DNA from: a virus | IMG/VR virus record: IMGVR_UViG_3300006750_000020 | Location: 1-40,494 of that record | Reading direction: 5' to 3' (one strand) | DNA length: 40,494 nt | Made by a program: the position numbers and the translations under genes | Part shown: in pieces, positions 268 through 40,024 of the stretch | How positions within the stretch are numbered: position 1 is the first letter of the stretch | Layout: each line of letters opens with the position of its first letter | The notes under the pieces: generated by a model | What the model was told of the DNA's origin: nothing | Database searches by the model: none | Seen by the model: only the letters and a program-made list of their open reading frames with translations

Positions 268-323
268 AGCCGTTCAGACGGGGATTTTCCCGGCTGCGTT
301 CTTTAAAAATCAGGAGAACCACA

Positions 324-533
324 ATGTCAGGTTCAGTACGTGAAGGCGGCTTTTACGCCGTGCAAAACAGTACCCTCGACGGTAAGCCGATCAAAGAGGG
401 GGTGGCGCAGGTTATGGAAGTTATCGATCCAAAACCGGATCCCCTTGGGCGAATTCACTGCGAAGTGCTGTTCCCCGGCCTCGGAGAAAGGCCTACCGAA
501 CGATGGGTGTACCCTAACGACAAAGTGAAGTGA
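324..533 (+). CDS. Small 69-aa protein, probably early expressed
   Basis: The function is not recognised. The product is short, with alternating hydrophobic residues (VAQVMEVIDP, IHCEVLFPG, RWVYPNDKV), so a small beta-barrel is possible. The start is secure: ATG 324 follows AGGAGAACCACA, the same ribosome-binding cassette used by the leftward small genes at 37.7-40 kb. It is transcribed from the promoter at 239 and followed at once by a terminator, so it is probably monocistronic. The shared promoter core and cassette tie it to the early small genes rather than to the structural genes downstream. A second frame open over the same span (340-528) is a shadow. Confidence 0.8.
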   Translation: MSGSVREGGFYAVQNSTLDGKPIKEGVAQVMEVIDPKPDPLGRIHCEVLFPGLGERPTERWVYPNDKVK

Positions 534-540
534 GGCAACA

Positions 541-570
541 GGCGCCCGGCGGTTTCGTCGGGCGCCTTTT
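541..570 (+). terminator. Rho-independent terminator after the 69-aa gene
   Basis: GGCGCCCG on the left pairs with CGGGCGCC on the right around a short loop and is followed by TTTT. It lies just after the stop at 533 and separates the short early unit from the structural genes that begin at 610. Confidence 0.8.
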
Positions 571-609
571 ACGTATAGACTCCGGGCTAGGCTTTAGAGG
601 TATAAATCA

Positions 610-1914
610 ATGTTCGGAATTCCTATAGTTGGCGGTGACGAAACCTATTTGCGACTTGACGCTAGTAACGGCCCGCTGGACGGGGACTTGTTAGCGCAAT
701 CGGTAAGTCCACGCGGATCGGACAGCTACAATCTCGGAACGTCGTTAAGCCGATGGTCAACAGCAAATATAAACACGATCACCTGCAACACTTTAGTTGA
801 TGGCACCGCATTAAATTTTCGCAATACCCAAGACGTTGAATCGGGCATCGTAATCGACGATGACGTAAGCGCCGGTACTCGGATGGAAAGTTGGAACCTC
901 CTCGGCGAGATAGGGCCGGCTTTTACCGGCGGAACGCAAACCATCGATTATTCGTCGGTCGGACAATACACCGCGCCTAACCTTAATATGGTCGGACTGT
1001 CGGGGGTAGGTAAGGGAGCGCCAACATTAAGCATCGTTAACTCTGGCAACGGGGCCATATTCGCACCCACTTATTACAGCCCATGGGCGAACACCGGAAC
1101 CACCGTCACCATGTCTAATAGTAATTGGGGCAGCCTGCTTTTAGGAGTTGCCGCCGACCGGTACGACGACTCCGAGTTGACTCTCTCATCTACTAACGGT
1201 TTTGCTGTTGGAGGAAATATCACTGGCGGGTTTGTCACGACGCCGGCAACGAGTGGCACGTCAAAGGTGGCTAATAACAACGCCGGTTTTTTAACCGGCG
1301 GATCCGTCACTTTTGGTTTCGCGAACGGCAGCACTATCGAAACGACAGCATCAGGCACGTTCTGCACAGGGTACGCGACGGCGAGCGCTTCGCTCCGCAC
1401 CACAGCACCCGGAGCGTTCACCACCGGGTATGCGAACGGCAGCGGGTCGGCGGTGCTGGCCTCCGGACAGGGGGCCATGGCAACCGGCGAGTGTAACGCC
1501 GGCGGCACCATCACCGCGTCCGGCGCCGGTAGTTTTGCTCACGGATCCGTAGGTGCCGCCAGCGCGTGCACTGCCAGCGCCGCCAACTCGGTGCAATGGG
1601 GGGTCGGGGTGAATGCCGAGGCGGACACCGTATCGGCCGGCACCATGATACGGATCAAGGGCACGGCCGGCGCTCCCGGCGTACCGCGCAATGGTGATGT
1701 GTATGTTACAGCCGGCGGGTTTGTTACAGCGCAATCGAACGCTAAGGCCGTGCAGTTGAACACCGGCGCGGCCGCGTGGACGGCCGGCACGTATGCCACT
1801 CGGCGCAGCTTCGCCGGTTTGTTGGCTGACGGCACCGCCGCAGCCGACGCCGAGATACTGGAACTACTCGAAACTCTGATTGACGAATTGCAGACAGCCA
1901 ACCATATAAACTAA
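610..1914 (+). CDS. Fibre/appendage protein with YadA-like repeats
   Basis: 434 aa, Gly/Ala/Ser/Thr-rich and low in charge. The middle (about residues 190-345) has loose repeats of roughly 20-24 residues of the form A-S/P-G-x-F-x-T-G-Y-A (for example SGTFCTGYA, PGAFTTGYA, GQGAMATGE, GAGSFAHGS), like the beta-roll heads of YadA-type trimeric adhesins. The C-terminus (LADGTAAADAEILELLETLIDELQ) looks helical and could trimerise. A trimeric virion fibre or host-recognition protein is the best inference. AGAGG precedes ATG 610 at good spacing. It lies upstream of small structural genes and lysis genes, far from the tail-fibre cluster at 22.4-27.1 kb. Confidence 0.65.
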   Translation: MFGIPIVGGDETYLRLDASNGPLDGDLLAQSVSPRGSDSYNLGTSLSRWSTANINTITCNTLVDGTALNFRNTQDVESGIVIDDDVSAGTRMESWNLLGEIGPAFTGGTQTIDYSSVGQYTAPNLNMVGLSGVGKGAPTLSIVNSGNGAIFAPTYYSPWANTGTTVTMSNSNWGSLLLGVAADRYDDSELTLSSTNGFAVGGNITGGFVTTPATSGTSKVANNNAGFLTGGSVTFGFANGSTIETTASGTFCTGYATASASLRTTAPGAFTTGYANGSGSAVLASGQGAMATGECNAGGTITASGAGSFAHGSVGAASACTASAANSVQWGVGVNAEADTVSAGTMIRIKGTAGAPGVPRNGDVYVTAGGFVTAQSNAKAVQLNTGAAAWTAGTYATRRSFAGLLADGTAAADAEILELLETLIDELQTANHIN

Positions 1915-1923
1915 GGTAGCAAT

Positions 1924-2268
1924 ATGAGTATTGAAATTAGCGACCCAAACCACACCGTCACCGTGCCAATACCGGGGGAAGCTCCGACTACGCACGTCCG
2001 TATCATCAGTTTTCAGATGGGCCGACCGCCGGCACCGGAGTTTGGTGAAATTACCGTGACCGTGGGTTACGTGTTTTGTGACGAGTCCGGCCCATCCCCG
2101 GTGATTGTGAAGCAGGAAGATATCACCGTAAGAGGCACCGAGGCGATAAACTTTTTATCGCAAGAGGTTAAAGATAATCTCTGTAAAGACATCGATCAGG
2201 CGGCACTCGACGGTTTGCGATCACTTGGTAAGTTGCCTGCGGGTAATGTCATCGAGGATGTAGAGTAG
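1924..2268 (+). CDS. Hypothetical small structural-cluster protein (114 aa)
   Basis: Not recognised. It follows the fibre gene by 9 nt with an AGGTAGC ribosome site. The N-terminal two thirds alternate in a beta-strand pattern (THVRIISFQMG, GEITVTVGYVF) and the C-terminus is helical (QEVKDNLCKDIDQAALDGLRSLGKL). Position suggests an accessory virion protein or chaperone for the fibre at 610, but the sequence gives no direct support. Confidence 0.7.
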   Translation: MSIEISDPNHTVTVPIPGEAPTTHVRIISFQMGRPPAPEFGEITVTVGYVFCDESGPSPVIVKQEDITVRGTEAINFLSQEVKDNLCKDIDQAALDGLRSLGKLPAGNVIEDVE

Positions 2269-2274
2269 TAAGTT

Positions 2275-2706
2275 ATGGCTAATGAACTGAATATCGCGAT
2301 CACGACGGACGGGCTATCGGATATGGTCGCGCGGATATTTGATGACGATTGGGTTCAGGTCGGCAGTGATATCGCCATGGTTGAGAGCGGCAGTACCGGG
2401 CGGTATACCGGGGACGTCCCGGTAGCTACGCTCGCTTCGCAGCAGTACAACGTCAGCTTTTACACCACAGGTGAAACTCCGGATCTGCTACGCGGTACCG
2501 GTACGCTGGTATGGGATTCAGCCGGCGATAAAGAGGTTAAGCCCGGTGAAATGCTCACCGAAGCGTGGAAAGATAGGGGCCTCGATCCTGACGCCATTAA
2601 AACAATCACCGAAGTTGCGGAAGGCAGCGACTATGACGAAGCGGTGGACGGCATTACAAAAGACGTTACTAAAGTAGGTGCCGTAACGACAATAGACCGC
2701 GCATGA
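2275..2706 (+). CDS. Putative beta-sandwich virion protein (143 aa)
   Basis: The first 90 residues read as alternating beta-strands with a G-x-Y-T-G-D-V-P turn and a YNVSFYTTGETP strand. This pattern is common in small Ig-like or jelly-roll domains attached to phage fibres. The last 50 residues are acidic and mixed helical. Its stop overlaps the next gene's start (ATGA at 2703-2706), so the two are translationally coupled. A role as fibre-associated or decoration protein is inferred from context only. Confidence 0.65.
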   Translation: MANELNIAITTDGLSDMVARIFDDDWVQVGSDIAMVESGSTGRYTGDVPVATLASQQYNVSFYTTGETPDLLRGTGTLVWDSAGDKEVKPGEMLTEAWKDRGLDPDAIKTITEVAEGSDYDEAVDGITKDVTKVGAVTTIDRA

Positions 2707-2948
2707 TCTTCGATCCCGTTTCGATTGCTACCGCCGGCTACGTTGGCCGGAGCGGCCTTATGCGGCCGCTGGCAATCGGTTCCGATGGATACATAAAATT
2801 CGACGCCGACACACGGCCCGGCGGGGGCGGCGCGGGCCACGGCGCGTATATACCGTTACCGGGGGTGGACAAATTAAGCATTTCAAGTGATGATGACGTA
2901 GACTTGGGCATCCTCGCTGTCGTGTTTATAGATCAACTGGACGACTGA
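2703..2948 (+). CDS. Hypothetical 81-aa protein
   Basis: Not recognised. Its ATG overlaps the stop of the preceding gene (ATGA) and its TGA is followed directly by the ATG of the next gene (TGAATG), so it sits in a tightly coupled run. It contains a GGGGAG linker near residue 40 and an acidic, hydrophobic C-terminus. The overlaps are the main evidence that it is expressed. Confidence 0.6.
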   Translation: MIFDPVSIATAGYVGRSGLMRPLAIGSDGYIKFDADTRPGGGGAGHGAYIPLPGVDKLSISSDDDVDLGILAVVFIDQLDD

Positions 2949-3365
2949 ATGGGCACGGTAAAGGCTAAAATACGTGATAATCCAATGGTTTATTTAATAA
3001 GTTCGGTGATTATAGCAACGGGGCTAGTCACCGGCACTGTCGCGGCTATCAATGAGATCGATCAGCTTATTCTCACGCACGCTGAACACGCGGCCGATAT
3101 GAAACCTATAAAAGCGGCGATGATCGCCAGCGAAAAGGCAATCAGCGAGCTGCAAACATGGAATAAGTGTGCGCGGCTAGAACAGCGCATGGATACGCTC
3201 GAAGATAGGCTATTTAACCAGATTCAAAGCGGCTCTAACAGTTCGTTACGCCATGACACCAAAATAGAGTTAAGCAAAGTAGAACGTCAGTTTAACGCGC
3301 ATAACTGCGCTCGGGTACTCGCATGGATTTTCACTCGTTCGGCGCCAAGTCTCGCGCGAAATTAG
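2949..3365 (+). CDS. Membrane-anchored coiled-coil protein of the lysis cassette
   Basis: 138 aa. Residues about 13-35 (MVYLISSVIIATGLVTGTVA) form one strong transmembrane segment. The remaining 100 residues are largely helical and charged (SEKAISELQ, ARLEQRMDTLEDRLF), consistent with a coiled coil. It directly precedes the endolysin, and the endolysin start lies inside its 3' end. The topology fits an inner-membrane spanin, a holin partner or an XhlA-like lysis accessory. The sequence does not decide between these, and no outer-membrane spanin lipoprotein was found. Confidence 0.6.
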   Translation: MGTVKAKIRDNPMVYLISSVIIATGLVTGTVAAINEIDQLILTHAEHAADMKPIKAAMIASEKAISELQTWNKCARLEQRMDTLEDRLFNQIQSGSNSSLRHDTKIELSKVERQFNAHNCARVLAWIFTRSAPSLARN

Positions 3366-3769
3366 ATAATTGCCACCCCGCCTTAACCGAAATAGCCGAA
3401 TTGGCGCTGCGGATATCGCCGTATGACTTCACCATCATTCACGGCTACCGCGACGAAGAACTGCAGAATGCGCTGTACAACTCCGGTGCCAGCACCAAGC
3501 AATATCCTGATTCTCGCCACAACAAAACCGACGATCCGACGTACCTGCATACCGAGTATTTCAGCGACGCTATCGACTTCGGCCCATGGATCGACGGCGA
3601 CGTGCCGTGGGATGACACGCACATATTCGCCTTGATTGCCGGCTGTTTCATCGCGGCTGCGGCGCACTACGGCCTTACTTTACGTTGGGGCGGTGATTGG
3701 GATAGCGACGGTTCAACCACCGATCAAAAGTTAATGGATTGGGGCCACGTGGAGCTTGTCCATGTTTAA
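3323..3769 (+). CDS. Endolysin, M15-family peptidase
   Basis: 148 aa, matching L-alanyl-D-glutamate/D,D-carboxypeptidase endolysins that cut peptidoglycan stem peptides using zinc. Likely zinc ligands are H66 (in SRHN), D85 (in SDAIDFGP) and H142 (in DWGHVEL); WGGDW at 122-126 is also typical. In most members the first ligand His is about 8-10 residues before the Asp. Here the gap is 19, filled by an acidic/aromatic insert (about 67-80). There is no signal peptide, so release depends on the holin downstream. It overlaps the gene before by 43 nt and the holin by 8 nt. Confidence 0.85.
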   Translation: MDFHSFGAKSRAKLDNCHPALTEIAELALRISPYDFTIIHGYRDEELQNALYNSGASTKQYPDSRHNKTDDPTYLHTEYFSDAIDFGPWIDGDVPWDDTHIFALIAGCFIAAAAHYGLTLRWGGDWDSDGSTTDQKLMDWGHVELVHV

Positions 3770-4277
3770 AATAGATAAACTGAAAAAACTCGTTAGCACG
3801 GTCGCGCCGCTGGCCGGCATGGCCCTCGGCGGCCCCCTCGGCGCGACGGCCGGCAAAATGATTCAGCAGGCGCTAGGCGTTGACAGTGACGACGAAGCGT
3901 TGAAGATGCTACAGACCGATCCTGACGCCTTGCTAAAACTGAAAATCGCCGAGGCGGACTTTGAGGCGCGTATGCGCGAGCTGGATATCACTGAGGCTGA
4001 GATCGAGGCCGGCGACCGTAACAGCGCTCGCGATATGATAAAGACAACCGGAATGGGTTTTCAGGCGCTCTTGACAGCCATCTTTTTAACCGGTTACATG
4101 ATTCTAATCGCGCTCTTTTTCACTGGCGATATAGATGTCACCGATGACTGGCAGAAAGGCCAGCTCGGCATACTGATCGGCGTGCTCACGGCGGCCGTGC
4201 CGCAGATGCTCAATTTCTGGTTTGGTTCCAGTCAGGGGTCGAAAAATAAAACACAGCTAATAGGTAAAAAGCCGTAA
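3762..4277 (+). CDS. Holin, GTA 3-TM type
   Basis: 171 aa. It has an N-terminal glycine-rich hydrophobic segment (about 15-40, TVAPLAGMALGGPLGATAG), a charged middle with helix-forming Leu/Glu/Asp, then two clear transmembrane segments (about 96-121 and 132-154). This order matches the GTA_holin_3TM family, which forms the membrane lesion that frees the endolysin. I start at ATG 3762, because GGAG at 3751-3754 is 7 nt upstream. An upstream TTG at 3756 is too close to that site. The start lies inside the endolysin stop region, so the two are coupled. Confidence 0.8.
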   Translation: MFKIDKLKKLVSTVAPLAGMALGGPLGATAGKMIQQALGVDSDDEALKMLQTDPDALLKLKIAEADFEARMRELDITEAEIEAGDRNSARDMIKTTGMGFQALLTAIFLTGYMILIALFFTGDIDVTDDWQKGQLGILIGVLTAAVPQMLNFWFGSSQGSKNKTQLIGKKP

Positions 4278-4280
4278 ACG

Positions 4281-5101: not shown

Positions 5102-5114
5102 ATCGTATTTATAA

Positions 5115-15155: not shown

Positions 15156-16139
15156 ATGTCTACTATAGGCATCTTCAACACTGGAAAAATACATAACGGG
15201 CTGGCCAATGCTTTGCGGGGGACTGCAGAAAAACCCCCTGTAACTCTGCTTAAACCGGGCGAGGGGCAGGCGCCTTATTCAGCTCCGCCGTTTTCAACTA
15301 CCGCCCCGCAGTTTGGCGCCTACAATCATCTAGTGCATAACATGGCGCGCGGCCTCGATCCTCGAATGTTTTCGGTACCGGCTGGCACTTTCGGCGGCAG
15401 CATGGGCGGCTATGGCGGCTATGGCGGCAGCATGGGCAGCAGGGGCGGCTACGGCGGCTATGGAGGCAGTATGGGCAGCAGGGGCGGCTACGGCGGCTAT
15501 GGCGGCAGCATAGGCGGCTACGGCGGCAACATGGGCGGCTATGGCGGCAGCATGGGCGGCTATGGCGGCAGTATGGGCGGCTACGGCGGCTACGGCGGCT
15601 ATGGCGGCTACGGCGGCGGCGGTTTTAGCGGGAGCTTGGGCAACATGGGCGACGCCAGCCAAAACGGTGTTGGCGGCGGCAGCATGGGCGTCCGCCAAAG
15701 CGGTGTTGGCGGTAGCAGGGGCAACATGGGCAGCATGGGCGGCTACGGCGGCATCGGTTTTAGCGGGAGCTTGGGCAACATGGGCGACGCCAGCCAAAAC
15801 GGTGTTGGCGGCGGCAGCATGGGCGTCCGCCAAAGCGGTGTTGGCGGTAGCAGGGGCAACATGGGCAGCATGGTACGACAAAGCGGTGTTGGCAGCAGCA
15901 TGGGCGGCTACGGCGGCTATGGAGGCAGCATGGGCAGCAGGGGCGGCTACGGCGGCTATGGAGGCAGCATGGGCGGCTACGGCGGCTATGGAGGCAGCAT
16001 GGGCGGCTACGGCGGCTACGGCGGCTACGGCGGCAGCATGGGCGGCTATGGCGGCTATGGCGGCAACATGGGCGGCTATGGCGGCTACGGCGGCAGCACG
16101 GGCAACATGGGCGGCTTCGGAAGGAGGATGGGCTACTAA
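15156..16139 (+). CDS. Gly/Tyr/Ser/Met-rich tandem-repeat protein
   Basis: 327 aa. Residues 1-75 are ordinary sequence. From about residue 78 almost everything is built from GGYGGYGGSMG-type units, with MGSRG and GGNMG variants. Inside lies a 39-residue block (GFSGSLGNMGDASQNG..., ending RGNMGSM) present twice nearly verbatim. It lies between the nozzle and ejection genes and its stop overlaps the next start (TAATG), so it is probably a virion protein. Such Gly/Tyr composition occurs in silk-like, adhesive and condensate-forming proteins; none of these roles is shown here. The DNA repeats will favour length changes by recombination. Confidence 0.75.
   Translation: MSTIGIFNTGKIHNGLANALRGTAEKPPVTLLKPGEGQAPYSAPPFSTTAPQFGAYNHLVHNMARGLDPRMFSVPAGTFGGSMGGYGGYGGSMGSRGGYGGYGGSMGSRGGYGGYGGSIGGYGGNMGGYGGSMGGYGGSMGGYGGYGGYGGYGGGGFSGSLGNMGDASQNGVGGGSMGVRQSGVGGSRGNMGSMGGYGGIGFSGSLGNMGDASQNGVGGGSMGVRQSGVGGSRGNMGSMVRQSGVGSSMGGYGGYGGSMGSRGGYGGYGGSMGGYGGYGGSMGGYGGYGGYGGSMGGYGGYGGNMGGYGGYGGSTGNMGGFGRRMGY
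15393..16130. repeat. Coding tandem repeats of the Gly/Tyr-rich gene
   Basis: About 740 nt of short direct repeats based on GGCGGCTATGGCGGC and GGCAGCATGGGC, plus two long near-identical copies of a roughly 117-nt block (near 15624-15740 and 15753-15869). All periods keep the reading frame. Several other frames stay open by chance across this stretch. Confidence 0.9.
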
Positions 16140-16618
16140 TGTCGGCAGCAGCAAAAGATCGGGAACGCTTTGAGGAACTGCGCGCAGAACACGTAGTAGA
16201 AGATACGCGAGCGGCGATAGGCGCCGTCGCGGCTGAAAACGTGATGAAAGTGTGGGATAGGGTTGAACCTATACTGCGCCGAGTAGTTACCCCCGAAACG
16301 GGGCACACTCTGGATTCGGTGCTGAATGAGTTACAGTACGGCTATGCGCAGCTATGGGTCATCGACGATTTTAAAGCGGTAGCTGTTACTAAAGTAATTA
16401 CACGTCCGCTTAACAAGGCGCTGTGGACTCAGTTTATGGCCGGCGAAGATATGTCTAGTTGGTTGGGTGATTGGGAAGAAGTGCTAGGAGATTATGCGCG
16501 GCTTAATGGCTGCGAATTTATTGAATTTATGGGTCGTAACGGTTGGCATAAAAAAATGGCTAAACATCCGGGCTTTAAAGCGACGCATACCATTTTTCGT
16601 AAAAATGTGAAGGTGTAG
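16139..16618 (+). CDS. GNAT-like internal virion protein
   Basis: 159 aa. From about residue 60 the strand-helix order (YGYAQLWVIDDFKAVAVTKV, SSWLGDWEEVLGDYARLNGC, EFIEFMGRNGWHKKMAKH, GFKATHTIFRKN) resembles N-acetyltransferase folds found in podoviral virion clusters, including T7 gp13. Whether it acetylates anything is unclear; the structural role in those phages does not need catalysis. The N-terminus is a charged helix (KDRERFEELRAEHVVEDTRA). Its ATG overlaps the stop of the repeat-protein gene. Confidence 0.6.
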   Translation: MSAAAKDRERFEELRAEHVVEDTRAAIGAVAAENVMKVWDRVEPILRRVVTPETGHTLDSVLNELQYGYAQLWVIDDFKAVAVTKVITRPLNKALWTQFMAGEDMSSWLGDWEEVLGDYARLNGCEFIEFMGRNGWHKKMAKHPGFKATHTIFRKNVKV

Positions 16619-27839: not shown

Positions 27840-29205
27840 CGAGAAATTCTTCCATATCGGATAACTTCCCGGTAACGGTATCATAAACTTCGTGATCGAC
27901 GGTGTTATCGAACAGCGCCGTCCACACGTTCACGTGATCGGCGATCTGCCCCCGGCGAGCCAGCCGGCCGGTAACTTGCTTAAACATCCCCCCGCTCCAC
28001 GGTATTGTCAGGAACGCGATGTTATGCGCTCCGGACTTCTGCAGGTTCAGGCCGTGGCCGGCACTGGCCGGGTGCAGCGCCATCTGTGGTAACTCGCCGG
28101 CGTTCCATGCGGCGATGTGCTTACGCTTGTTAGCTGTGCTGACACCGCTTCCAAGGTGCGCTATATCGGGGTGCCGCCGTTTCAGTTCGGCTAGTTCCTC
28201 CTTGAAGTGGTAGAACACCAATATCTGTTCATCCGAGCCGTAATACAGATTGTCATACCAATCGAAGCGTGCTTTCGAGTGCCATACGGCCTCGCTGGTG
28301 CCGTCAACGTAACTAAAGCCGGCACAGATCTGTTGCAGCTTACCCTTGAGCACGGCAGCGTTAGCCACATCGACTTCGCGTTTATTGCCCTTAGTATCTT
28401 CGAGGATCAGGTAAAATTCATCTTCCAAAGTTTTATAGTGTTTGCGGATCTCCGTAGGTAATTGCATCGAGTATGCCGGCCGGGGGATGACCGGCGGAAT
28501 GTTCGTCGCCTTTAATCGGAACGTCAGATCCGAGATCGAATCGATGATCGTTTGCCGGGTGTCAGGGAACGGCGCCCACTTATGTTGTTTGTAGTCGGTC
28601 GGATAAAAATACTTGCGCCGCCATTCGTAAAAGCTGCGCCCGAGTGAGTGCCCGCCGTCCACTATATAAGTGGATCCCCAAACTTCGGTTAACTTGTTAG
28701 GGGTAAGCGTGCCGGTCAGGCCGACGCGTTTCTTGAGGTAAGGTATGCGGCCGCGCAGATCCTTGAACCGCTCCGAGCTAACTTCTTTTAGCTTATCGAT
28801 CTCATCGCAAATCAGGCCGTCGAACGGCAAAGTGTTTTTGCCCGGCGCGCGCGGGTAGCGGTTCAGCAACCACTGCAGATTCTCGTAGTTTATGACGACG
28901 ATATCAGCGTCGGATTCCAGCGCCTCGATACGCGCATCTTCGGTGCCGCAGGCGATGGCTTGTTTAAGGTGTCTCAGGTGCGCCCATTCGCCCGGTTCCG
29001 GCCCCCATGTGTCCGTTGCTACTAATAAGGGTGCAAGTACCAGCCAGCGCGTTATACGGCCGTCCTGCAGCGCCATATCGGCCGCTGTCAGGCTTATAAC
29101 GGTCTTACCGGTGCCAACGTCGGCGCACACGAGCGCGTCCTCCCCGCTGTCTATAAAGGCTATACAATCGAGCTGATCGGGTTCGAGTTCTGAATATTTA
29201 AGCAT
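27817..29205 (-). CDS. SNF2-like DNA helicase/translocase
   Basis: 462 aa, superfamily 2. Walker A DVGTGKT (29-35), motif Ia LAPLLVATDTWGPE, motif II DEID (134-137), motif III TGT (164-166), motif V ASAGHGLNLQ and motif VI QVTGRLARRGQ (in the last 70 residues) are all present, so it should be an active ATPase. The short length is usual for phage versions, which act in recombination-dependent replication. AGGTGGAG precedes ATG 29205. It is read leftward from the control region at 29206-29321 and forms an operon with the VRR-NUC gene. Confidence 0.88.
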   Translation of the reverse strand: MLKYSELEPDQLDCIAFIDSGEDALVCADVGTGKTVISLTAADMALQDGRITRWLVLAPLLVATDTWGPEPGEWAHLRHLKQAIACGTEDARIEALESDADIVVINYENLQWLLNRYPRAPGKNTLPFDGLICDEIDKLKEVSSERFKDLRGRIPYLKKRVGLTGTLTPNKLTEVWGSTYIVDGGHSLGRSFYEWRRKYFYPTDYKQHKWAPFPDTRQTIIDSISDLTFRLKATNIPPVIPRPAYSMQLPTEIRKHYKTLEDEFYLILEDTKGNKREVDVANAAVLKGKLQQICAGFSYVDGTSEAVWHSKARFDWYDNLYYGSDEQILVFYHFKEELAELKRRHPDIAHLGSGVSTANKRKHIAAWNAGELPQMALHPASAGHGLNLQKSGAHNIAFLTIPWSGGMFKQVTGRLARRGQIADHVNVWTALFDNTVDHEVYDTVTGKLSDMEEFLDDVEAAA

Positions 29206-29253: not shown

Positions 29254-29291
29254 TTGCATTTCACTGTGATATCACTGTAACATCACGTTCT
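29254..29291 (+). promoter_or_regulatory. Replication-module promoter with three 11-bp operator repeats
   Basis: TTGCAT (29254-29259) and TAACAT (29278-29283) at 18 nt form a plausible sigma70 promoter. Over it lie three direct repeats in 11-bp phase: TTTCACTGTGA (29259-29269), TATCACTGTAA (29270-29280) and CATCACGTTCT (29281-29291). The TCACTGTGATAT core is identical to that at 250-263. The next gene encodes a ribbon-helix-helix protein, a class that binds short repeats about one helical turn apart, so autoregulation is likely. The leftward helicase promoter must also lie in 29206-29321 but is not clear. Confidence 0.75.
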
Positions 29292-29321: not shown

Positions 29322-29570
29322 ATGAATACGAGAACAAAACGCCGACTGTATAAAGTAGGCCCCCCCAGTACCCCACTTAATGATCGCAAGCAACGCGATC
29401 CTGATTACGTGCGCGCCGTCGTTCTTAAAATGGGGGAAGAATTCATCGAAGCGCTGGATAAACTGTGCGACGTAAATCAGCGCAGCCGGCGTGAGCTAGT
29501 TGAGATATTCGTCGCCGAAGCTATCATGGAATTTAATGAAGATAACAACGCGCGGATCACTCCGCTATGA
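29322..29570 (+). CDS. Ribbon-helix-helix DNA-binding regulator
   Basis: 82 aa. The C-terminal half shows the RHH pattern: a strand (RAVVLKM), helix A (EEFIEALDKLCDVN), turn (QRSRR) and helix B (ELVEIFVAEAIMEF). The N-terminus is basic and flexible (MNTRTKRRLYKV). Such dimers insert a two-stranded sheet into the major groove. It is the first gene after the phased operator repeats at 29259-29291, which makes it the best candidate regulator of the three related promoters in this window. Its stop overlaps the next start (ATGA). Confidence 0.72.
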   Translation: MNTRTKRRLYKVGPPSTPLNDRKQRDPDYVRAVVLKMGEEFIEALDKLCDVNQRSRRELVEIFVAEAIMEFNEDNNARITPL

Positions 29571-31138: not shown

Positions 31139-31144
31139 GAGATC

Positions 31145-31201
31145 AACAGCAAACATAAACAGCAAACATAAACAGTAGACATAAACAGTAGACATAAACA
31201 G
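31145..31201. repeat. Four 13-bp A-rich tandem repeats in a leader
   Basis: AACAGCAAACATA occurs at 31145-31157 and 31158-31170, and the variant AACAGTAGACATA at 31171-31183 and 31184-31196. A fifth partial unit becomes the Shine-Dalgarno (AACAGGAG, 31197-31204) of the gene at 31212. The transcript would be unstructured and purine-rich, which could be a binding site for a single-strand-binding protein. Open frames on the opposite strand here are repeat artefacts. Confidence 0.9.
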
Positions 31202-32649: not shown

Positions 32650-32669
32650 ACTTTTAACGGAGAACCACC

Positions 32670-34799
32670 ATGCCCTATCTCGCCTTTATAGATGCCGAAA
32701 CCCGTTCGCCGGCAGATCTAACTCGCGTCGGCGGGTACAAGTACGCGAGCCATCCTGAAACTGATGTATTAATTTGGGGGTATGCGTTCGACGACGGTAC
32801 GCCGGCCGTATGGTCGCCTCGCCAGTATTGGGGTAACACTGCCGAATCTACCCCCGACTTACCTAAGCCGGCGGCGTTGCTCGATCACGTTAATGAAGGC
32901 GGCTATGTGGTCGCGTGGAACGCGTTTTTCGACCGTTGGATATGGAACGCGGTCATGGTGAAGAAATACGGGTGGCCGCCTTTAACGCGCGATCAAACTC
33001 TTTGTGCGATGGCACAGGCAGAAGCGAGTAATCTGCCGGGCAAGCTGGAAAAAGCGTGTGAAACGCTAGGCACGCAGTTTAAAAAGGATCCGGCCGGCAC
33101 GCGACTAATACAACAATTGTGTATGGGTACGCGTGACAACTGGCAGGGTGAGTTATTTGAAGTGCCGGGAAGGATGGGCCACTTCCGAAGCTACTGCGCC
33201 AGCGACATAACTTCAATGCGGGCCGTTTTTCAGGGCACGCGGCCGCTAACCGTTCCCGAGTGGGAGGAATACGCAGCCAGCGAGGCGGTCAACGACCGTG
33301 GCGTAATGATCGATGCTGAGTTCGCCTTTGCTGCGCAGAACTACGCCGAGGCCGAGTTTGCCGACATAAACGGCCAACTATCCGAACTGTGCGATGACGT
33401 GAAGATGACCGTCACAAACCATTTACGTAAAGCTAAGTGGTTGCACACTGAGCTGTGGCCTGACGAAGAACTGCAGACTGTAGTAGAGCGCCCGGAAAAA
33501 GAAGAAGGTAAACCGCGCTACTCTGCCGACCGCAGTACGCGTGAAGCGGTGCAGGAAATGTTACTGCAGCCAGAACACGCCGATCTGTTTAAGCCCGAGC
33601 ACCTTAATAAGATTACTGACTTTATCGAACTGATCGAGGCCGGCAACTCCGCCGCCGTGCGTAAGTTCACGGCCATGGTGAACCAAGTCACGCCGGACAG
33701 TAGGATCCGTGGCCAGTACGCATTCAACGGTGCCGGCCAAACCGGCCGATTCAGTTCGCGGGGCGTACAGCAGCACAATATGCTTCGCTCGCCGGTTGAA
33801 AAATATAAGCCGAACCGCGCTATCGACGCCATGGAAATGATACTCGACGGCGCCGAACCCGAAGCGCTGGTGGCCGAGTTTAAATACCCGGTGTCCCGGC
33901 TACTGGCTCGGTTGATCCGGCCGACGTATGTAGCGCCGCCGGGTAAAATTCTGGTATGGGCTGATTGGGATCAGATCGAGGCGCGGGTGCTGCCGTGGAT
34001 ATCTAAAACGCCCGGCGGCGACTCTAAGCTAGATCTGTTTCGCGACGGCCGGGATGTTTACAAGTACGCCGCCGAACCCATCTTTAAGAAGCACGTCGAG
34101 GATATAAACGACCATGAGAGACAGGTCGGCAAGGTTGCAGAGCTGGCATTAGGGTTTGGGGGCGCTGTGGGCGCCTTTACAGCGATGGGTCGCGGCTATG
34201 GCGTCATCGTGCCAGAAGAACAGGCGCTCGAAATTGTAATGGCGTGGCGTGCGCAGAATTCGTGGTGCGTTAACTTTTGGGGCGAGCTGTGGGAAGCGGC
34301 CATAGCTGCACACGGCAACCCCGGCACATGGTTTTCTGCCGGCAGGGTGCGCTACCTGTTTCACCCTGCACTGATGAAAGGTACTTTAATCTGCGAGCTA
34401 CCCGATCAGCGTTGGCTAGTGTATCCGCAGTTCAAGCGCGAGTATAAAGAATACACTCGCAAGGATCTGCGCACCGGTAAAGAAATCAGCGGCGAGAAAT
34501 GGTTTACCACTTTCCGCAAGGGATTCGGATCCGGATCTGCAAGGGTGGATCTGTGGCACGGTATGCTGGCCGAGAACATTACCCAAGGGTACGCTGCCAG
34601 CTACCTAAGAAACGCCATAGTCGAACTGCAGGATTACGCGGTACTGCACACGCATGATGAGATCGTATGCGAAGTGACGGAACGCCATGATCGTTATATG
34701 GCCGTGCTGATGAACGAAGTAATGACCGATATCCCCGAGCACGGCGAGGGGCTGCCGCTGTCAGTCACGGTGGAGTCCGGGCCGTTTTATACTAAATAG
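32670..34799 (+). CDS. Family A DNA polymerase with 3'-5' exonuclease
   Basis: 709 aa replicative polymerase. Exonuclease motifs: DAE (8-10), N84/D88 in AWNAFFDRW, and YCASD (175-179). Polymerase motifs: TGRFSSRGVQQHN (358-370), motif A ADWDQIEAR (431-439), motif B with KVAELALGFGGAVG (488-501), and motif C HTHDE ending at 664. All catalytic carboxylates are present, so proofreading and synthesis should both work. There is no 5'-3' exonuclease domain, as in other phage Pol A enzymes. GGAGAACCACC precedes the ATG, a near copy of the ribosome cassette used by the early small genes. Confidence 0.93.
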   Translation: MPYLAFIDAETRSPADLTRVGGYKYASHPETDVLIWGYAFDDGTPAVWSPRQYWGNTAESTPDLPKPAALLDHVNEGGYVVAWNAFFDRWIWNAVMVKKYGWPPLTRDQTLCAMAQAEASNLPGKLEKACETLGTQFKKDPAGTRLIQQLCMGTRDNWQGELFEVPGRMGHFRSYCASDITSMRAVFQGTRPLTVPEWEEYAASEAVNDRGVMIDAEFAFAAQNYAEAEFADINGQLSELCDDVKMTVTNHLRKAKWLHTELWPDEELQTVVERPEKEEGKPRYSADRSTREAVQEMLLQPEHADLFKPEHLNKITDFIELIEAGNSAAVRKFTAMVNQVTPDSRIRGQYAFNGAGQTGRFSSRGVQQHNMLRSPVEKYKPNRAIDAMEMILDGAEPEALVAEFKYPVSRLLARLIRPTYVAPPGKILVWADWDQIEARVLPWISKTPGGDSKLDLFRDGRDVYKYAAEPIFKKHVEDINDHERQVGKVAELALGFGGAVGAFTAMGRGYGVIVPEEQALEIVMAWRAQNSWCVNFWGELWEAAIAAHGNPGTWFSAGRVRYLFHPALMKGTLICELPDQRWLVYPQFKREYKEYTRKDLRTGKEISGEKWFTTFRKGFGSGSARVDLWHGMLAENITQGYAASYLRNAIVELQDYAVLHTHDEIVCEVTERHDRYMAVLMNEVMTDIPEHGEGLPLSVTVESGPFYTK

Positions 34800-34962: not shown

Positions 34963-34986
34963 AAAACCCCGCCGAGGCGGGGTTTT
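34963..34986. terminator. Bidirectional-type terminator after polymerase unit
   Basis: AAAACCCCGCC and GGCGGGGTTTT form a GC-rich stem flanked by an A-run and a T-run, directly after the 50-aa gene. It should stop rightward transcription between the polymerase and the primase-helicase gene. Confidence 0.85.
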
Positions 34987-35003
34987 CAGGGGTTCGGCGA
35001 CGC

Positions 35004-35014
35004 GGAGAACCACC
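35004..35014 (+). promoter_or_regulatory. Orphan copy of the ribosome-binding cassette
   Basis: GGAGAACCACC, the cassette found before eight genes here, occurs after the terminator but is followed by AACACG rather than a start codon. The primase-helicase instead uses GGAG at 35043-35046. This may be a remnant of a lost gene, or a decoy or control site. Confidence 0.5.
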
Positions 35015-35053
35015 AACACGCCGCCTTAACTCAGATATAACCGGAGTCATGGA

Positions 35054-37369
35054 ATGAATGATATCACACAGAGAGCCACCTTACGCAAGCAATTACTGGA
35101 TAACGGATACCGGCCACTACCCTTGATCGACAAGGGCATACGGATAAAGGGTTGGGTACGTGATGACATAACGCCGGAGTGGGTCGCACGATTCGACCGC
35201 TCGGCACAATACCCCAATACAGGCATACGCTGCGACGATCTAATCGCGTTCGATATCGATGTGCTCGACGGAGAAATGGCCTACGCCATCGATGAGCACA
35301 TTAGCAATCGTATCGGTAAATCGGATCTGTGCCGCGTCGGCCAGTGGCCGAAGCGCTTAGTGCTTTACCGGGTGAAGGGTAGGCTGCCGGATACGTCGAG
35401 TCGCACCGGCAAGTACGAGCAGGGTGAAGATAAGCACCAAGTCGAATTGTTGTGCACGCGTGGCCGGCAGTTCGCCGCCTACGGCATTCATCCCGGCACA
35501 AAGAAACCTTACTATTGGGACGACTACGGCGATCCGCTATCAGTTCCTTTCAAAGAACTGCCAACTGTCACGGTCAAAATGGCATTGAAGGTGCTCGAAG
35601 AAATCGACGAAATGTTTAGCCAACGGTGGAACCTTACAAAGTACGCCCCCGGCGGCGAGCGCGGATTAGGCGGCGAGTCAGAGTACGATCTAACCGACCA
35701 TACCAAGCTAGAGTATGAGGGCGAGCTGACGACGTGGGGGGATCTGAAAGGTTCTCTCACGTCGGACGGCGGCTTCGGCAACTTAATGCGCGAGCAGGGT
35801 GAAATGGGCGACAGCGGTTCGATACATTTCTTTGTGGCCGGTGGATCCGGGGCACCGTGCGCGCATGACTTCCCGCGTGACTGTACCCATTGGGAAAGTC
35901 TCTACAACGAGGATCTGGCTACGTTGTTAACGACGGCCGTGCTGGACGCGCCGACTGCGGCGGTGGATAACCTGTTCGTGCCGGGGGAGTACCGGGATCT
36001 GTTAAACGACCATATCCTGCTAAACGATAAGACCGTGCGCCGGCTCAGTAATCCATTACGCGCCTATTCCATTGACGGGTTCAGGGGCAACCGCAAGCAC
36101 CTGACGGTTCAGCATCCCGAGGATCCAAAGAAAACAATCCCCATGGTTAGTTGTTGGGAAATGGATCCGGACACCTTGCGGGCCGACTACGCGGCCATGC
36201 GGCCGGACAAACCGCGTGACGACATTATCCGCGAGCGTAAAGATAAGATATTCAACACCTACTTTCCGCCTGACCATCCGACTGCGGGCGGCGAGGCCGA
36301 CACGGCATTCGAGTTTATAGAGCATTTAATCCCTGACGCTACCGACCGGGATCTGTTTATCCAGTGGCACGCATTAAAGGTAGCGCATCCCCATTACCGT
36401 ATGCACGGTCTGGTGATGGTGACACCGGCATACGGCACCGGGCGCGGTACGTGGACGCAGATACTCCAAAAGCTGTTCGGCTCGCAGTACGTGCGGGAAA
36501 TCTCCCTGTCACAGCTCATAGGCCATGACGGGCAATCACAGTTCAATGATTACATGGCCGAGTCGCTGATTGTGTCGGTGCCGGAGGCATTCGAGGAACG
36601 TGAGGATCAAAGCAAGTGGGCCACCCGCCATGCGGCCTACGAACAATTGAAACTGGTATGCGAACCGGTATCCACCGAGCAACTAATTAAACGGAAATAC
36701 GGCCATAACTCAACCGAGAAAGTGTTCGCATCCATTCAGGTGTCGAGCAACCATTTAGACGCATTAGCCATAGAATCAGGCGACCGCCGGCTACTGGTTA
36801 TCGACAACACCGAAACACCCTTAGTAAACGCGCCGGATGATCTGTATAGCCGCATTCAGGTGTGGAAGGATTCGCCGGCTAACATAGGCGCGCTTTACCA
36901 TGAAATGTTAACCATAGCGGCCGAAGGCATTGACTATCAGCCATTCGGCCAGCCGCCAATGACACCGGCCAAGCGCCGCATGATTGAGTCGAGTCAATCC
37001 GACGCGGACAAGGCATTCGACTACATGGTAGATGAGGCGCGAGGCGCCGTTGTAACCCCGTCACAGTGGCGCCAGTTCGCCATTAAGGCCCGTACAGACC
37101 TACAGCTCGATCTACCATTAGGCGAGCGATTAGACGCTGTGCTAACGGCCGTGCTGCAGAAGCGCGGGCGGCGGATTGACGCGCTGGCCGGGCGGCAGCT
37201 AAAGGTTAAAGCTACTCCGGTGCGGCCGTGGATTATTAGGGATTTTGCACGCTGGAAAGGTAACACCGATTTAGCAGAAATACGTGCGGAAATTTTGAAA
37301 AACGGGGATCCGGGCGGCGGGGTGGTGGCGTTTCCCGGCGCGGGAAAAAATCCGGGGGTATCCCCCTGA
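35054..37369 (+). CDS. Prim-pol / D5-like helicase (DUF5906 type)
   Basis: 771 aa, a fused primase and helicase. The N-terminal 180 residues resemble bifunctional prim-pol domains: GYRPLPLIDKG, the catalytic-type AFDIDV (D67, D69), and RVGQWPKRLVLYRVKG. From about 430 an SF3/D5-like ATPase follows: Walker A-like GTGRGT (461-466), Walker B-like VSVPEA (507-512), sensor SSNH (564-567) and arginine finger GDRR (576-579). The usual Walker A lysine is Arg464 here. It would unwind and prime phage DNA for the polymerase upstream. GGAG lies 7 nt before ATG 35054. The C-terminal 30 residues are Gly-rich. Confidence 0.85.
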   Translation: MNDITQRATLRKQLLDNGYRPLPLIDKGIRIKGWVRDDITPEWVARFDRSAQYPNTGIRCDDLIAFDIDVLDGEMAYAIDEHISNRIGKSDLCRVGQWPKRLVLYRVKGRLPDTSSRTGKYEQGEDKHQVELLCTRGRQFAAYGIHPGTKKPYYWDDYGDPLSVPFKELPTVTVKMALKVLEEIDEMFSQRWNLTKYAPGGERGLGGESEYDLTDHTKLEYEGELTTWGDLKGSLTSDGGFGNLMREQGEMGDSGSIHFFVAGGSGAPCAHDFPRDCTHWESLYNEDLATLLTTAVLDAPTAAVDNLFVPGEYRDLLNDHILLNDKTVRRLSNPLRAYSIDGFRGNRKHLTVQHPEDPKKTIPMVSCWEMDPDTLRADYAAMRPDKPRDDIIRERKDKIFNTYFPPDHPTAGGEADTAFEFIEHLIPDATDRDLFIQWHALKVAHPHYRMHGLVMVTPAYGTGRGTWTQILQKLFGSQYVREISLSQLIGHDGQSQFNDYMAESLIVSVPEAFEEREDQSKWATRHAAYEQLKLVCEPVSTEQLIKRKYGHNSTEKVFASIQVSSNHLDALAIESGDRRLLVIDNTETPLVNAPDDLYSRIQVWKDSPANIGALYHEMLTIAAEGIDYQPFGQPPMTPAKRRMIESSQSDADKAFDYMVDEARGAVVTPSQWRQFAIKARTDLQLDLPLGERLDAVLTAVLQKRGRRIDALAGRQLKVKATPVRPWIIRDFARWKGNTDLAEIRAEILKNGDPGGGVVAFPGAGKNPGVSP

Positions 37370-37398
37370 TATCAAAGTCCTAAAAATAGCCATTAGGG

Positions 37399-37584
37399 TG
37401 TTACCTTGTGTTACCTGCTAAGTGTTTGTCGCAGCAGGAGAAACACTAAAAAGGTAACAGGTAACACCCTAACACAGAGTCTATTTTGATATTTAATAAT
37501 GTGTTTTATAGCGCCGTCGATAAAACAGGGGGGTGCGGGGTGATTTAGGGCTACTATAGGCGGGGTGTTACCTGTTACCTTTTT
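37399..37584. repeat. Iteron-like TGTTACCT repeats, direct and inverted
   Basis: Direct pair at 37399-37406 and 37409-37416 (10-bp spacing); inverted pair at 37452-37459 and 37459-37466; direct pair at 37566-37573 and 37573-37580 (the last two pairs have 7-bp spacing). The arms 37448-37469 and 37563-37584 are perfect 22-bp inverted repeats 93 nt apart. 37393-37406 and 37459-37472 form another perfect 14-bp inverted pair. Confidence 0.85.
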
Positions 37585-37622
37585 GCGGTGCATACATTGA
37601 AGTGTAAACCTTAAAGTAGAAT

Positions 37623-37650
37623 AAAAAACGCCCGCCATTAAGGCGGGCAT
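37623..37650 (-). terminator. Terminator of the leftward small-gene operon
   Basis: GCCCGCC (37630-37636) pairs with GGCGGGC (37642-37648) around ATTAA. Read leftward the stem is followed by TTTTTTAT. It lies about 75 nt beyond the last leftward gene. Confidence 0.85.
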
Positions 37651-37722
37651 AAAGGCCATTGTCATAACCACCAAGCAAAGGCCGGCAGGATCCGCTCTTG
37701 GTGGCGGTACCGGTTCAGGATC

Positions 37723-38310
37723 CTAGGCATAGCCGGCATAGGTGGCGCGCCGGCCGACCGGGCAGGCAGCCATTAAGGCGGCCATGCGGTCATTATCTTG
37801 TTGGTGCGCGGTATCGCACGCGTGCCTCAGGGCCTTTTCTGCCTCTTGTTGCGCGTACTCATAGCCATAGATACCGCCAAGTGTGTCGCCTGTTTCCCCG
37901 TCGCTATAGGTGACTTCATAGCAGTACACCGAGCCATTACACCAGTCTGTTACCGACTCGCATACGCTGGCCGCGTACTTGGCAGGATCCGGGCACTCGG
38001 CCGGGTTCACCAGAATATAGCCGGCCTGCCATGAATCCCAAGGGCAGGAAAATCCTGATGTGGCATATTGCACAAGGCCGTGCTCATATTTAAATAATGG
38101 CATACATAACCATTTATTGTCTTTTGACCATTGCAGCGCCTCGGCAGGATCATCGAAGGGGTGCATATCGGTCAGTATGCTCTCGCGCTCAAAGGTGGCG
38201 AAAATAACGGCACCTTCCGACCATTCCAAAGGGCACTCATGGTCGAACATATCGATGAGTATGTTAACGGTTATACCGTCGCGGTCAATTGTGTCTATTA
38301 CATCATTCAT
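37723..38310 (-). CDS. Early small-operon protein (195 aa), YxHGL..PWDSWQ type
   Basis: The start is set at ATG 38310, preceded by AGGAGAACCACT; an upstream in-frame extension to 38379 is rejected. The central pattern YEHGLVQYATSGFSCPWDSW, then QAGYILV, resembles proteins I recall from phages and conjugative elements that lack a known function. The second half is acidic with several cysteines (CESVTDWCNGSVYCYEV). It is the last gene of the leftward operon. Candidate roles (host takeover, anti-defence) are inferred from operon type only. Confidence 0.75.
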   Translation of the reverse strand: MNDVIDTIDRDGITVNILIDMFDHECPLEWSEGAVIFATFERESILTDMHPFDDPAEALQWSKDNKWLCMPLFKYEHGLVQYATSGFSCPWDSWQAGYILVNPAECPDPAKYAASVCESVTDWCNGSVYCYEVTYSDGETGDTLGGIYGYEYAQQEAEKALRHACDTAHQQDNDRMAALMAACPVGRRATYAGYA

Positions 38311-38335
38311 AGTGGTTCTCCTGATTAGGTTTAAG

Positions 38336-38599
38336 TTATTCCTTGCAACAACAATCCGGGGTGCAAGCTTCCAGACCATTGCGCGATATGTCGCGCACTT
38401 CTTGCATTACTGAATCCCAAAATGCCGGCTTACCGCCGGGCACTATAAATTCGCTTACGACAAGGCCGTGTAGATCCGGTTCTATACGTTTACCGTCCGG
38501 CGCCTGTACTTCTATGTCCCAAGTATATGCGGCGTCATTTTCTATCAGTATTAGACCGGCCGCGGTGGCGGCCTTGGTTACTTGTTGCTTTGTTGCCAT
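38336..38599 (-). CDS. Early small protein (87 aa)
   Basis: ATG 38599 carries the cassette AGGAGAACCACA and begins MATKQQVTKAATAAGLILIE. The frame extends upstream to 38638, but that part overlaps the promoter at 38629-38657. The protein has a helical N-terminus, a beta middle (YTWDIEVQAPDGKRIEP) and a Cys tail (CTPDCCCKE). It is the first gene after an internal operator-bearing promoter, so it and the 195-aa gene can be expressed separately from the rest of the operon. Confidence 0.75.
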   Translation of the reverse strand: MATKQQVTKAATAAGLILIENDAAYTWDIEVQAPDGKRIEPDLHGLVVSEFIVPGGKPAFWDSVMQEVRDISRNGLEACTPDCCCKE

Positions 38600-38628
38600 T
38601 GTGGTTCTCCTGCTCAATGTCAGGTTAC

Positions 38629-38657
38629 AGTATATCACATTGATATCATTATTGCAA
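38629..38657 (-). promoter_or_regulatory. Internal leftward promoter with the shared operator core
   Basis: On the minus strand, TTGCAA (38652-38657) and TATACT (38629-38634) are 17 nt apart. The spacer plus -10 read GATATCAATGTGATATACT, differing by one base from GATATCACTGTGATATACT at the promoter at 239. It drives the genes at 38336-38599 and 37723-38310. Confidence 0.85.
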
Positions 38658-38668
38658 GTGCGGGTATT

Positions 38669-38911
38669 CTAGCATTCCACTGCAATTTCCAGCTCATCAA
38701 GACACCGGACGCCATTAGGCCATGTAAACGCGTCGATATCGGTTAGACGTTCGACGTTGACGCCATTACGGATTTTGTCCGGCGTTAGGTTTACGTTTTT
38801 CGATCCCTCGCACGCATACCAGCGCGTGCCGTCGCGGTTTTCGTATATGAAAACTTCACACGGATTTAGCGCGGGGCCATAGGTGCCTGATACTGTTTTA
38901 AGTTCTGACAT
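38669..38911 (-). CDS. Early small protein (80 aa)
   Basis: ATG 38911 follows AAAGGAGAACCACA. The product is a small mixed beta protein (NPCEVFIYENRDGTRWYACE, DAFTWPNGVRCLDELEIAVE), possibly a compact fold with two Cys pairs. No family is recognised. Its 5' end overlaps the small ORF upstream by 14 nt. Confidence 0.72.
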   Translation of the reverse strand: MSELKTVSGTYGPALNPCEVFIYENRDGTRWYACEGSKNVNLTPDKIRNGVNVERLTDIDAFTWPNGVRCLDELEIAVEC

Positions 38912-39071
38912 TGTGGTTCTCCTTTGGGGGTTTATTGGGTATTAGTGCCGGGTGCCGCCAGCTATGCCCGCACAGCGCACAGTGCACAGTGACCACCGCG
39001 CGCAATGGCTCGGGATATGTAGCTTGTCGGTGCCAGTACGCGGCGCTGCATTTACAAGGTGATTCAGCCAT
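38898..39071 (-). CDS. Small zinc-ribbon-like protein (57 aa)
   Basis: The ATG (39071-39069) overlaps the stop of the gene before by 8 nt (ATGGCTGA), so it is likely coupled. The sequence contains CKC near residue 7 and HCALCGHSWRH near residue 35, a C-x-C ... C-x2-C-x-H arrangement that could hold one zinc. It fills the only gap in the operon. The lack of a ribosome cassette, unlike its neighbours, lowers confidence. The frame's 3' end carries the cassette of the next gene. Confidence 0.5.
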   Translation of the reverse strand: MAESPCKCSAAYWHRQATYPEPLRAVVTVHCALCGHSWRHPALIPNKPPKENHNVRT

Positions 39072-39351
39072 TTTCTGCAGCTTTTTTATTCTGCAGTTCT
39101 AGCAGATATCCCGCGGCTTTAGGATTCGCCTCTAGCGCGCGGCACACGGCCAGTATCCGGCATTGCCCGCTCCCCCGGTTATAGTGTTTATCAATACGCG
39201 CGGCGAATTCCGGCCCGGTTAGAGTTTCACCATAGGCCATAAGGTGCCCGAAAGTTTGCGCGGCGTAGCGCTGTGTTTCAGCGCGCCACGGATCACTGTC
39301 CAGTGAATAGCGCCACACGGTTTTAGCGCGGGTTATTTTGAAGTCTGACAT
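39064..39351 (-). CDS. Early small helical protein (95 aa)
   Basis: ATG 39351 follows AGGAGAACCACA. The protein is mostly helical and basic at the start (MSDFKITRAKTVWRYSLDSD, PWRAETQRYAAQTFGHLMAY, CRILAVCRALEANPKAAGYL). Not recognised. Its start lies 19 nt inside the upstream gene, so its ribosome site is within that gene's coding sequence. Confidence 0.72.
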   Translation of the reverse strand: MSDFKITRAKTVWRYSLDSDPWRAETQRYAAQTFGHLMAYGETLTGPEFAARIDKHYNRGSGQCRILAVCRALEANPKAAGYLLELQNKKAAENG

Positions 39352-39551
39352 TGTGGTTCTCCTGCGATTTCTGCATCCGTCATAGGCTTATGATTGAATG
39401 CGCGCATAACGTCATTGTAGCGCGATACCATTGTGTCGTGATCCAGCGCGACGGCGTGCGCAAACGCGCGCGCGGCCATTTGCGCCGCGGCCGGCGTGAA
39501 TCCCTCACGGCGTATGCCGTGACCGAAAATTATAGATTGTATGTCTAGCAT
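39333..39551 (-). CDS. Early small helical protein (72 aa)
   Basis: ATG 39551 follows AGGAGAACCACA. Helical, Ala-rich (FTPAAAQMAARAFAHAVALD, VSRYNDVMRAFNHKPMTDAE). It resembles the neighbouring 95-aa protein in composition, but no common motif is clear. Function unknown. Confidence 0.7.
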   Translation of the reverse strand: MLDIQSIIFGHGIRREGFTPAAAQMAARAFAHAVALDHDTMVSRYNDVMRAFNHKPMTDAEIAGEPQCQTSK

Positions 39552-39564
39552 TGTGGTTCTCCTG

Positions 39565-39963
39565 TTAGTAATTCATTTGTTCGGCCGCGTGATCCCGGTG
39601 CGACGGTTCAAAGTCGCGCGCTTCGGCCGCGGTTATCATTGACATAGCGCACGGCCCTTCGGCCCCGTCGTACATCATTGTTTCAAGATATTCAAACAAC
39701 CGCGGCAGCGCTGTGATGCACGTCACACTATCGCTTTCGTATTGGTCACAGTCGCGGCCCCATTCATATACGTATACCTTGCCATTAACTTGTTTATCAG
39801 CCATTACGGCGGCCATTGCGGCCCGCTCGGCCAGCGGATCCCGGTAGAATTCGCGGATATTTTTACGGCATTGCTCGATGTAAAATTTTCTAGTGGCGGG
39901 ATCCAGTTCACCCGAGCGCAGGCGGGCGTAGATTTTACGTAACATATCGTATTGATTAGTCAT
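39565..39963 (-). CDS. First protein of the leftward early operon (132 aa)
   Basis: ATG 39963 follows AGGAGAACCACA. The N-terminal 60 residues are helical and basic (YDMLRKIYARLRSGELDPAT, FYIEQCRKNIREFYRDPLAE). The second half is acidic (VYEWGRDCDQYESDSVTCIT, LFEYLETMMYDGAEGP). It is promoter-proximal, so probably the most expressed of the group. No family is recognised. Confidence 0.72.
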   Translation of the reverse strand: MTNQYDMLRKIYARLRSGELDPATRKFYIEQCRKNIREFYRDPLAERAAMAAVMADKQVNGKVYVYEWGRDCDQYESDSVTCITALPRLFEYLETMMYDGAEGPCAMSMITAAEARDFEPSHRDHAAEQMNY

Positions 39964-40024
39964 TGTGGTTCTCCTGATTTAGTCCATTAGCCATTAGGCC
40001 ATTAGCCATTAGGCCATTAGCCAT
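39956..40024 (-). CDS. Possible 22-aa repeat leader peptide
   Basis: In the leader of the leftward operon, ATG 40024 opens a 22-codon frame that reads MANGL three times, then NQENHND, and stops at TAA inside the start region of the 132-aa gene. There is no clear Shine-Dalgarno. The 15-bp repeat length keeps the frame. It could be a regulatory upstream ORF or a by-product of the repeat. Confidence 0.3.
   Translation of the reverse strand: MANGLMANGLMANGLNQENHND

Follow-up and report, generated by a model that had tools for sequence, protein, structure and literature searches.

We analysed IMG/VR virus record IMGVR_UViG_3300006750_000020, the whole 40,494 bases of which are referred to here as the window, and in particular a 12-base leader, AGGAGAACCACA, at the ribosome-binding position of several of its genes. 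With the ATG that follows, the leader forms the 15-mer AGGAGAACCACAATG, which occurs in six exact copies. A previous, sequence-only reading had placed the same leader before eight genes and had noted one orphan copy; six exact copies and two variants were indeed located at gene starts, and the orphan is real and lacks an ATG. That reading had described the copies at 38310 and 32670 as one-base variants, which is correct for the former, with one mismatch, and incorrect for the latter, with two. The copies lie on both strands, in divergent operons, as follows.

312-326, plus strand: exact leader and ATG, before the gene at 324-533
32658-32672, plus strand: leader copy CGGAGAACCACC and ATG (15-mer CGGAGAACCACCATG), two mismatches, before the DNA polymerase gene at 32670-34799
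35003-35015, plus strand: orphan copy CGGAGAACCACCA lacking an ATG, flanked by a terminator-like hairpin and the primase gene (35054)
38308-38322, minus strand: leader copy AGGAGAACCACT and ATG (15-mer AGGAGAACCACTATG), one mismatch, before the gene at 38310-37723 (phrog_6186)
38597-38611, minus strand: exact copy, before the gene at 38599-38336
38909-38923, minus strand: exact copy, before the gene at 38911-38669 and within the 3' end of the open reading frame (ORF) at 39071-38898
39349-39363, minus strand: exact copy, before the gene at 39351-39064 and within the 3' end of the ORF at 39551-39333
39549-39563, minus strand: exact copy, before the gene at 39551-39333
39961-39975, minus strand: exact copy, before the gene at 39963-39565, the first of the leftward accessory operon

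In all eight gene-linked copies, the terminal ATG is the start codon of a plausible gene. The orphan is identical to the polymerase copy over 13 nt and then continues with AAC ACG CCG CCT TAA, where reading stops immediately. When up to three mismatches to the 15-mer were allowed, nine matches were found in the window against 0.71 expected, and none of 100 shuffled sequences reached nine.

The leader is carried by 8 of the 17 non-structural genes and by none of the 26 others (Fisher p 1.7e-4). Its genes are mostly small accessory genes, joined by the DNA polymerase gene. The polymerase belongs to phrog_17 and the product of 38310, a 195-residue protein, to phrog_6186, while Pfam and PHROGs scans gave no family match for the remaining leader-gene proteins. 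No mutual similarity was detected among the eight proteins; the seven accessory genes had no homologue in the relatives that were fetched, and wider searches with the accessory proteins turned up hardly any relatives. Three of the genes (324, 38911 and 39351) have TCAG directly after the ATG. The positions of the leader fix the start codons of several of these ORFan genes.

Aligned on the ATG, the eight copies do not differ at positions -11 to -2 (GGAGAACCAC), which carry 2.0 bits per column, and departures occur once at -12 and twice at -1; position -13 is C in six copies, and information drops to background upstream of -13 and past the ATG. The leader thus consists of an AGGAG Shine-Dalgarno sequence at a fixed distance, a seven-base spacer of A and C only (AACCACA; one copy has T at -1) and the AUG, and the earlier claim that conservation runs past the Shine-Dalgarno into the spacer is borne out by these columns. 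Among the seven accessory genes, pairwise identity in the spacer was 0.96, against 0.26 among other genes (permutation p 0.0002), whereas the upstream flanks from -30 to -14 reached 0.28 against 0.26. The 35 other genes of the window matched the spacer at a mean of 2.1 of seven positions, near chance, and a leader in general use by all genes of this phage is rejected on that count. AGGAG stands at the same distance in four other genes (12196, 15156, 27167 and 31212), the spacers of which match at two or three of seven positions. From the column frequencies of other genes, the chance of AACCAC at a given gene is about 6e-4.

Past the region that pairs with the Shine-Dalgarno sequence, the usual 3' end of 16S rRNA would pair with GUGAUCC, which is unlike AACCACA. 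Conservation of the leader therefore extends to bases without rRNA pairing potential. It also persists inside upstream coding sequence, as the sequence-only reading had stated: the copies at 39349-39363 and 38909-38923 are read by their upstream ORFs in different frames and the encoded residues differ, so that, judging from the coordinates, conservation acts at the nucleotide level. The spacer had a predicted unpaired probability of 0.77 in leader genes against 0.50 in the others (p 2.5e-4). An Rfam search gave no match for the leader, and a known structured RNA is rejected.

To place the leader among related phages, we collected relatives through polymerase, portal, capsid and helicase searches, which brought together a set of related contigs. 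Many are fragmentary, and absence of the leader is strongest for the long ones. The portal protein relates the window phage to proteobacterial podoviruses and not to mycobacteriophages. The 15-mer was absent from about 35 related records searched, all of them further removed than phages of a single cluster would be, and the general presence of the leader in the phage group is rejected. At three mismatches only unconvincing single matches appeared, in G003, G004, G012 and G013; at two mismatches there was none in 24 further related records, and megablast of the first half of the window against phages returned no match. The polymerase genes of relatives are preceded by other leaders. By these comparisons, the window leader is specific to its lineage and recurs at several places in the genome.

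Among relatives whose sequence looks complete, G001 is the nearest, and it has a shared leader of its own (G002 is the same virus, and the overlap of both shows that G001 is circular). After its primase gene lie seven leftward, unrelated accessory genes (L134:7124-10742), matching the leftward operon of the window, and their leaders share, to a varying degree, CACACACAACAGGAAACCnAyACn-ATG, that is, a CA-dinucleotide tract and AGGAAACC. In Shine-Dalgarno, spacer and upstream sequence, the members of this set resemble one another more closely than other genes do (permutation p 0.0002 to 0.0006); the set is unlike the window leader. G009 has AACCGAAAAGGAAAC before the start of three genes, while G028, G034, G044, G045, G046 and G039 have no comparable shared leader of their own. 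On this evidence, a shared accessory-operon leader occurs in some group members with different sequences and is not universal. The sequence-only reading had held that relatives conserving only the AGGAG part would tell against it; the relatives do lack the 15-mer, yet the leader of G001 is itself conserved beyond the Shine-Dalgarno.

We then counted, at all starts, genes sharing an exact 10-base leader, a statistic that replaced a greedy clustering based on gene calling which had missed the control phage TM4. TM4, the positive control for the start-associated sequence (SAS) of mycobacteriophages, gave 11 such genes, the window eight and G001 four, against at most three in T7, lambda, TL and the other relatives. 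Of 120 viral stretches (1.02 Mb in total), a rough yardstick since they are fragmentary and were chosen for containing this 15-mer, only two reached four and none exceeded it. The exact 15-mer precedes many genes of unrelated viruses, in single copies per stretch among the matches listed, which inform little apart from those in contig L043. A chance origin of the repeat is rejected by the shuffles and by this survey of viral stretches.

Promoter-like elements and a possible regulator accompany part of the set; neither the palindromic promoter element nor the confinement of the leader to non-structural genes figures in the sequence-only reading.

239-267, plus strand: sigma70-like promoter TTGACA-17-TATACT, overlapping palindrome GATATCACTGTGATATA (249-265) and preceding the 324 leader
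38629-38657, minus strand: sigma70-like promoter TTGCAA-17-TATACT, overlapping palindrome GATATCAATGTGATATA (38631-38647) and preceding the 38599 leader
29257-29284, plus strand: two overlapping degenerate copies of the palindrome, upstream of gene 29322
29322-29570, plus strand: ribbon-helix-helix (RHH, CopG-like) protein, with an RHH_1 match just under the curated cut-off

The palindrome shared by the promoters at 249 and 38647 (GATATCANTGTGATATA) reads GATATCA(A/C)TGTGATATA. Two of the eight leader copies thus have a promoter and palindrome upstream, as in the extended SAS (ESAS). The RHH protein, with orthologues in G001 (59% identity), G010 (48%), G028, G034 and G044, is a candidate DNA-binding regulator of the palindrome promoters and would act by binding these boxes. 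G001 has similar boxes (TTGCAA..TATATCAA..TATACTG and TTGCAAACTGTATATCAATTTGATAGACTG) between its divergent accessory operons. A further virus contig, G016 (L172:2804-3496), found only through the palindrome, carries the promoter/operator in identical form (TTGACAAAGCGATATCAATGTGATATACTG), and an ORF of 59 residues in its operon is RHH-like by eye and has no Pfam match.

Other repeats were noted in the window. Four tandem 13-bp units (TAAACAGnAnACA) at 31143-31200 lie directly before the nucleotidyltransferase-like gene 31212, with a similar copy at 757-775, and may be iterons. A GC-rich array of 9- and 12-base units (GCAGGGCCAGCGGGGCCGCTA...) occupies 40100-40310, between the divergent accessory operons near the end of the record. 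The gene at 15156-16139 encodes a glycine/tyrosine-rich repeat protein with many 9-base-phased repeats (15354-16184); G001 has repeats at about 28250-28510 that are similar to these by position.

Our preferred reading, which we hold with about even confidence, is that the leader is a standard, unstructured, strong, cis-acting translation-initiation leader of the SAS type. The spacer, predicted to stay unpaired between the AGGAG Shine-Dalgarno and the AUG, would allow strong ribosome loading in cis, independent of neighbouring sequence. It would serve the polymerase mRNA and the mRNAs of the small accessory genes, which are probably expressed early. Identity of the leader would be maintained by purifying selection at the mRNA level, and copying of the leader when new genes join in is a possible route by which it reached unrelated genes; copying would explain its origin and selection its upkeep. 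The sequence-only reading had offered two explanations, selection on the mRNA sequence or a gene cassette spreading together with its leader. The former is well supported because the core is invariant, the flanks are saturated, two reading frames are accommodated, the leader is restricted to non-structural genes and structure is low. Literal spread of genes together with their leader is not supported, because the proteins lack mutual similarity and likeness stops at the edges of the leader; copying of the leader alone is possible. A shared translational control, which the same reading had suggested, may act in trans, and recognition in trans and recombination or conversion may combine with a leader acting in cis.

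Four observations weigh against a leader that acts in cis through an open spacer. Predicted openness of the Shine-Dalgarno and of the AUG did not differ from that of other genes (p 0.6 and 0.3). The orphan at 35003, having no start codon, is one of two points that such a model explains least. The other is full identity of the spacer, which exceeds what a merely open spacer needs and fits a binding protein or recent copying equally. Finally, most of the relatives compared have no comparable shared leader, which is thus not essential for the phage group.

Full identity would follow if a phage or host RNA-binding factor recognised the leader and controlled the eight genes jointly, spacer identity being its binding specificity, in the manner of RegA and RegB of T4. 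We consider this unlikely, although the conserved bases include ones unable to pair with 16S rRNA, the polymerase is among the leader genes, and two copies lie under palindromic promoters, so that the set is partly co-regulated. In T4, some 30 mRNAs are repressed by RegA through their initiation regions, and RegB, together with S1, cleaves the GGAG of early Shine-Dalgarno sequences; the strong-site consensus of RegB, GG*AGRAYARAA, and the sites of RegA overlap the corresponding region (PMC3014915). Pfam and PHROGs scans of the non-structural proteins, covering part of the window ORFs, revealed no RegA or RegB homologue, however; the leader of G001 differs, and Rfam offers no match. A narrower form of this idea, to which we give a somewhat smaller chance still, takes the leader for an RNA operator through which a translational regulator, encoded by the phage and as yet undescribed, would switch the accessory genes and the polymerase together; the specificity of this regulator would diverge between lineages, the G001 leader being the counterpart operator.

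Recombination would account for the same identity differently, and we rate it on a par with the RNA-binding factor. The leader would be a recombination joint or gene-conversion product by which ORFans join resident copies, identical within genomes and different between them, with any benefit to translation secondary. The genes are unrelated and the seven accessory ones lack homologues in the fetched relatives, the polymerase genes of which have other leaders; the polymerase copy and the start-less orphan, identical over 13 nt, bracket the polymerase segment; leaders are alike within a genome and unlike between the window and G001; and the window leader overlaps the 3' ends of two genes upstream. 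Against this, likeness ends exactly at the functional borders, from the Shine-Dalgarno to the AUG, with saturated flanks; twelve identical bases are short for homologous recombination; and all copies except one sit at starts.

Convergence on one good initiation sequence, or chance, with each gene having arrived independently, we regard as improbable. It draws on the exact 15-mer found singly before many unrelated viral genes, among the matches listed, on the loose leader family of T7 (AAGGAGACACTAT), and on an unrelated virus contig (L043:3007-12651) with four AAGGAGAACCAC leaders, two followed by CATG, one by AATG and one directly by ATG. However, neither T7, lambda, TL nor roughly 1 Mb of further viral sequence comes close to eight genes with an exactly shared leader (the highest count is four), and other good starts of this phage use different leaders. 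A duplicated gene family that carried the leader along is very improbable and is rejected at the sequence level, since, despite the TCAG after the ATG in 324, 38911 and 39351, the eight proteins lack detectable similarity and the flanks do not align.

The preferred reading, a cis-acting leader of the SAS type, was finally set beside known systems. In T7, several genes share a Shine-Dalgarno sequence and a similar spacer (AAGGAGACACTATATG), but loosely, with at most three exact 10-mers. The T4 RegA/RegB system resembles the window in that one factor addresses the initiation regions of many early genes, and RegB needs GGAG followed by an A-rich stretch; its target sites are degenerate, whereas the window leader is near-identical across copies and no RegA or RegB homologue was recognised.

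The closest likeness is to the SAS of cluster K mycobacteriophages such as TM4 and Adephagia (PMC3203893, PMC11373665). Both are short, asymmetric AGGAG repeats at the ribosome-binding position before the ATG of unrelated non-structural genes, both are conserved past 16S rRNA pairing and both are missing from most other phages. At a subset of the cluster K sites, the ESAS, a sigma-like promoter and its inverted repeat lie upstream, as they do at two window copies; in Adephagia, this element has been interpreted as a promoter of SigA-like type that contains an inverted repeat. The cluster K motif is GGGATAGGAGCCC and the window motif AGGAGAACCACA, a different sequence and not a homologous motif. 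Cluster K genomes have 11-19 sites each, placed 3-7 bp from the start, whereas the window block reaches -2 (usually -1). Eight of the nine window copies are directly upstream of starts, all ATG, with one orphan, a count slightly lower than the 10-19 copies per genome of published SAS, and the genes served are non-structural and of different families. Conservation of copies across a phage cluster was not seen among the relatives compared, which are more distant.

Cluster EF Microbacterium phages carry both SAS and ESAS; the SAS is a 13-bp, lineage-specific motif that occurs ten times, at ribosome-binding sites (PMC7302621). Like the window leader, this SAS differs in sequence from that of cluster K and is accompanied by upstream extended elements; its motif is GGGAAAGGACCCC, its hosts are actinobacterial, and its ESAS is weakly conserved around GTAGAG and not a clear palindrome as in the window. 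The kind thus recurs with unrelated sequences, and the window leader looks like a third unrelated example after clusters K and EF. SAS have been a puzzle since 2011, with no established role, and the published reports found concern actinobacterial phages only. As a 12-base element the window leader is easily testable, and the comparison with G001 separates the importance of the exact sequence from that of having one shared leader. Taken together, the presence of a simpler and shorter case in an unrelated phage of podovirus-like type suggests that the SAS phenomenon is general and arises with different sequences.

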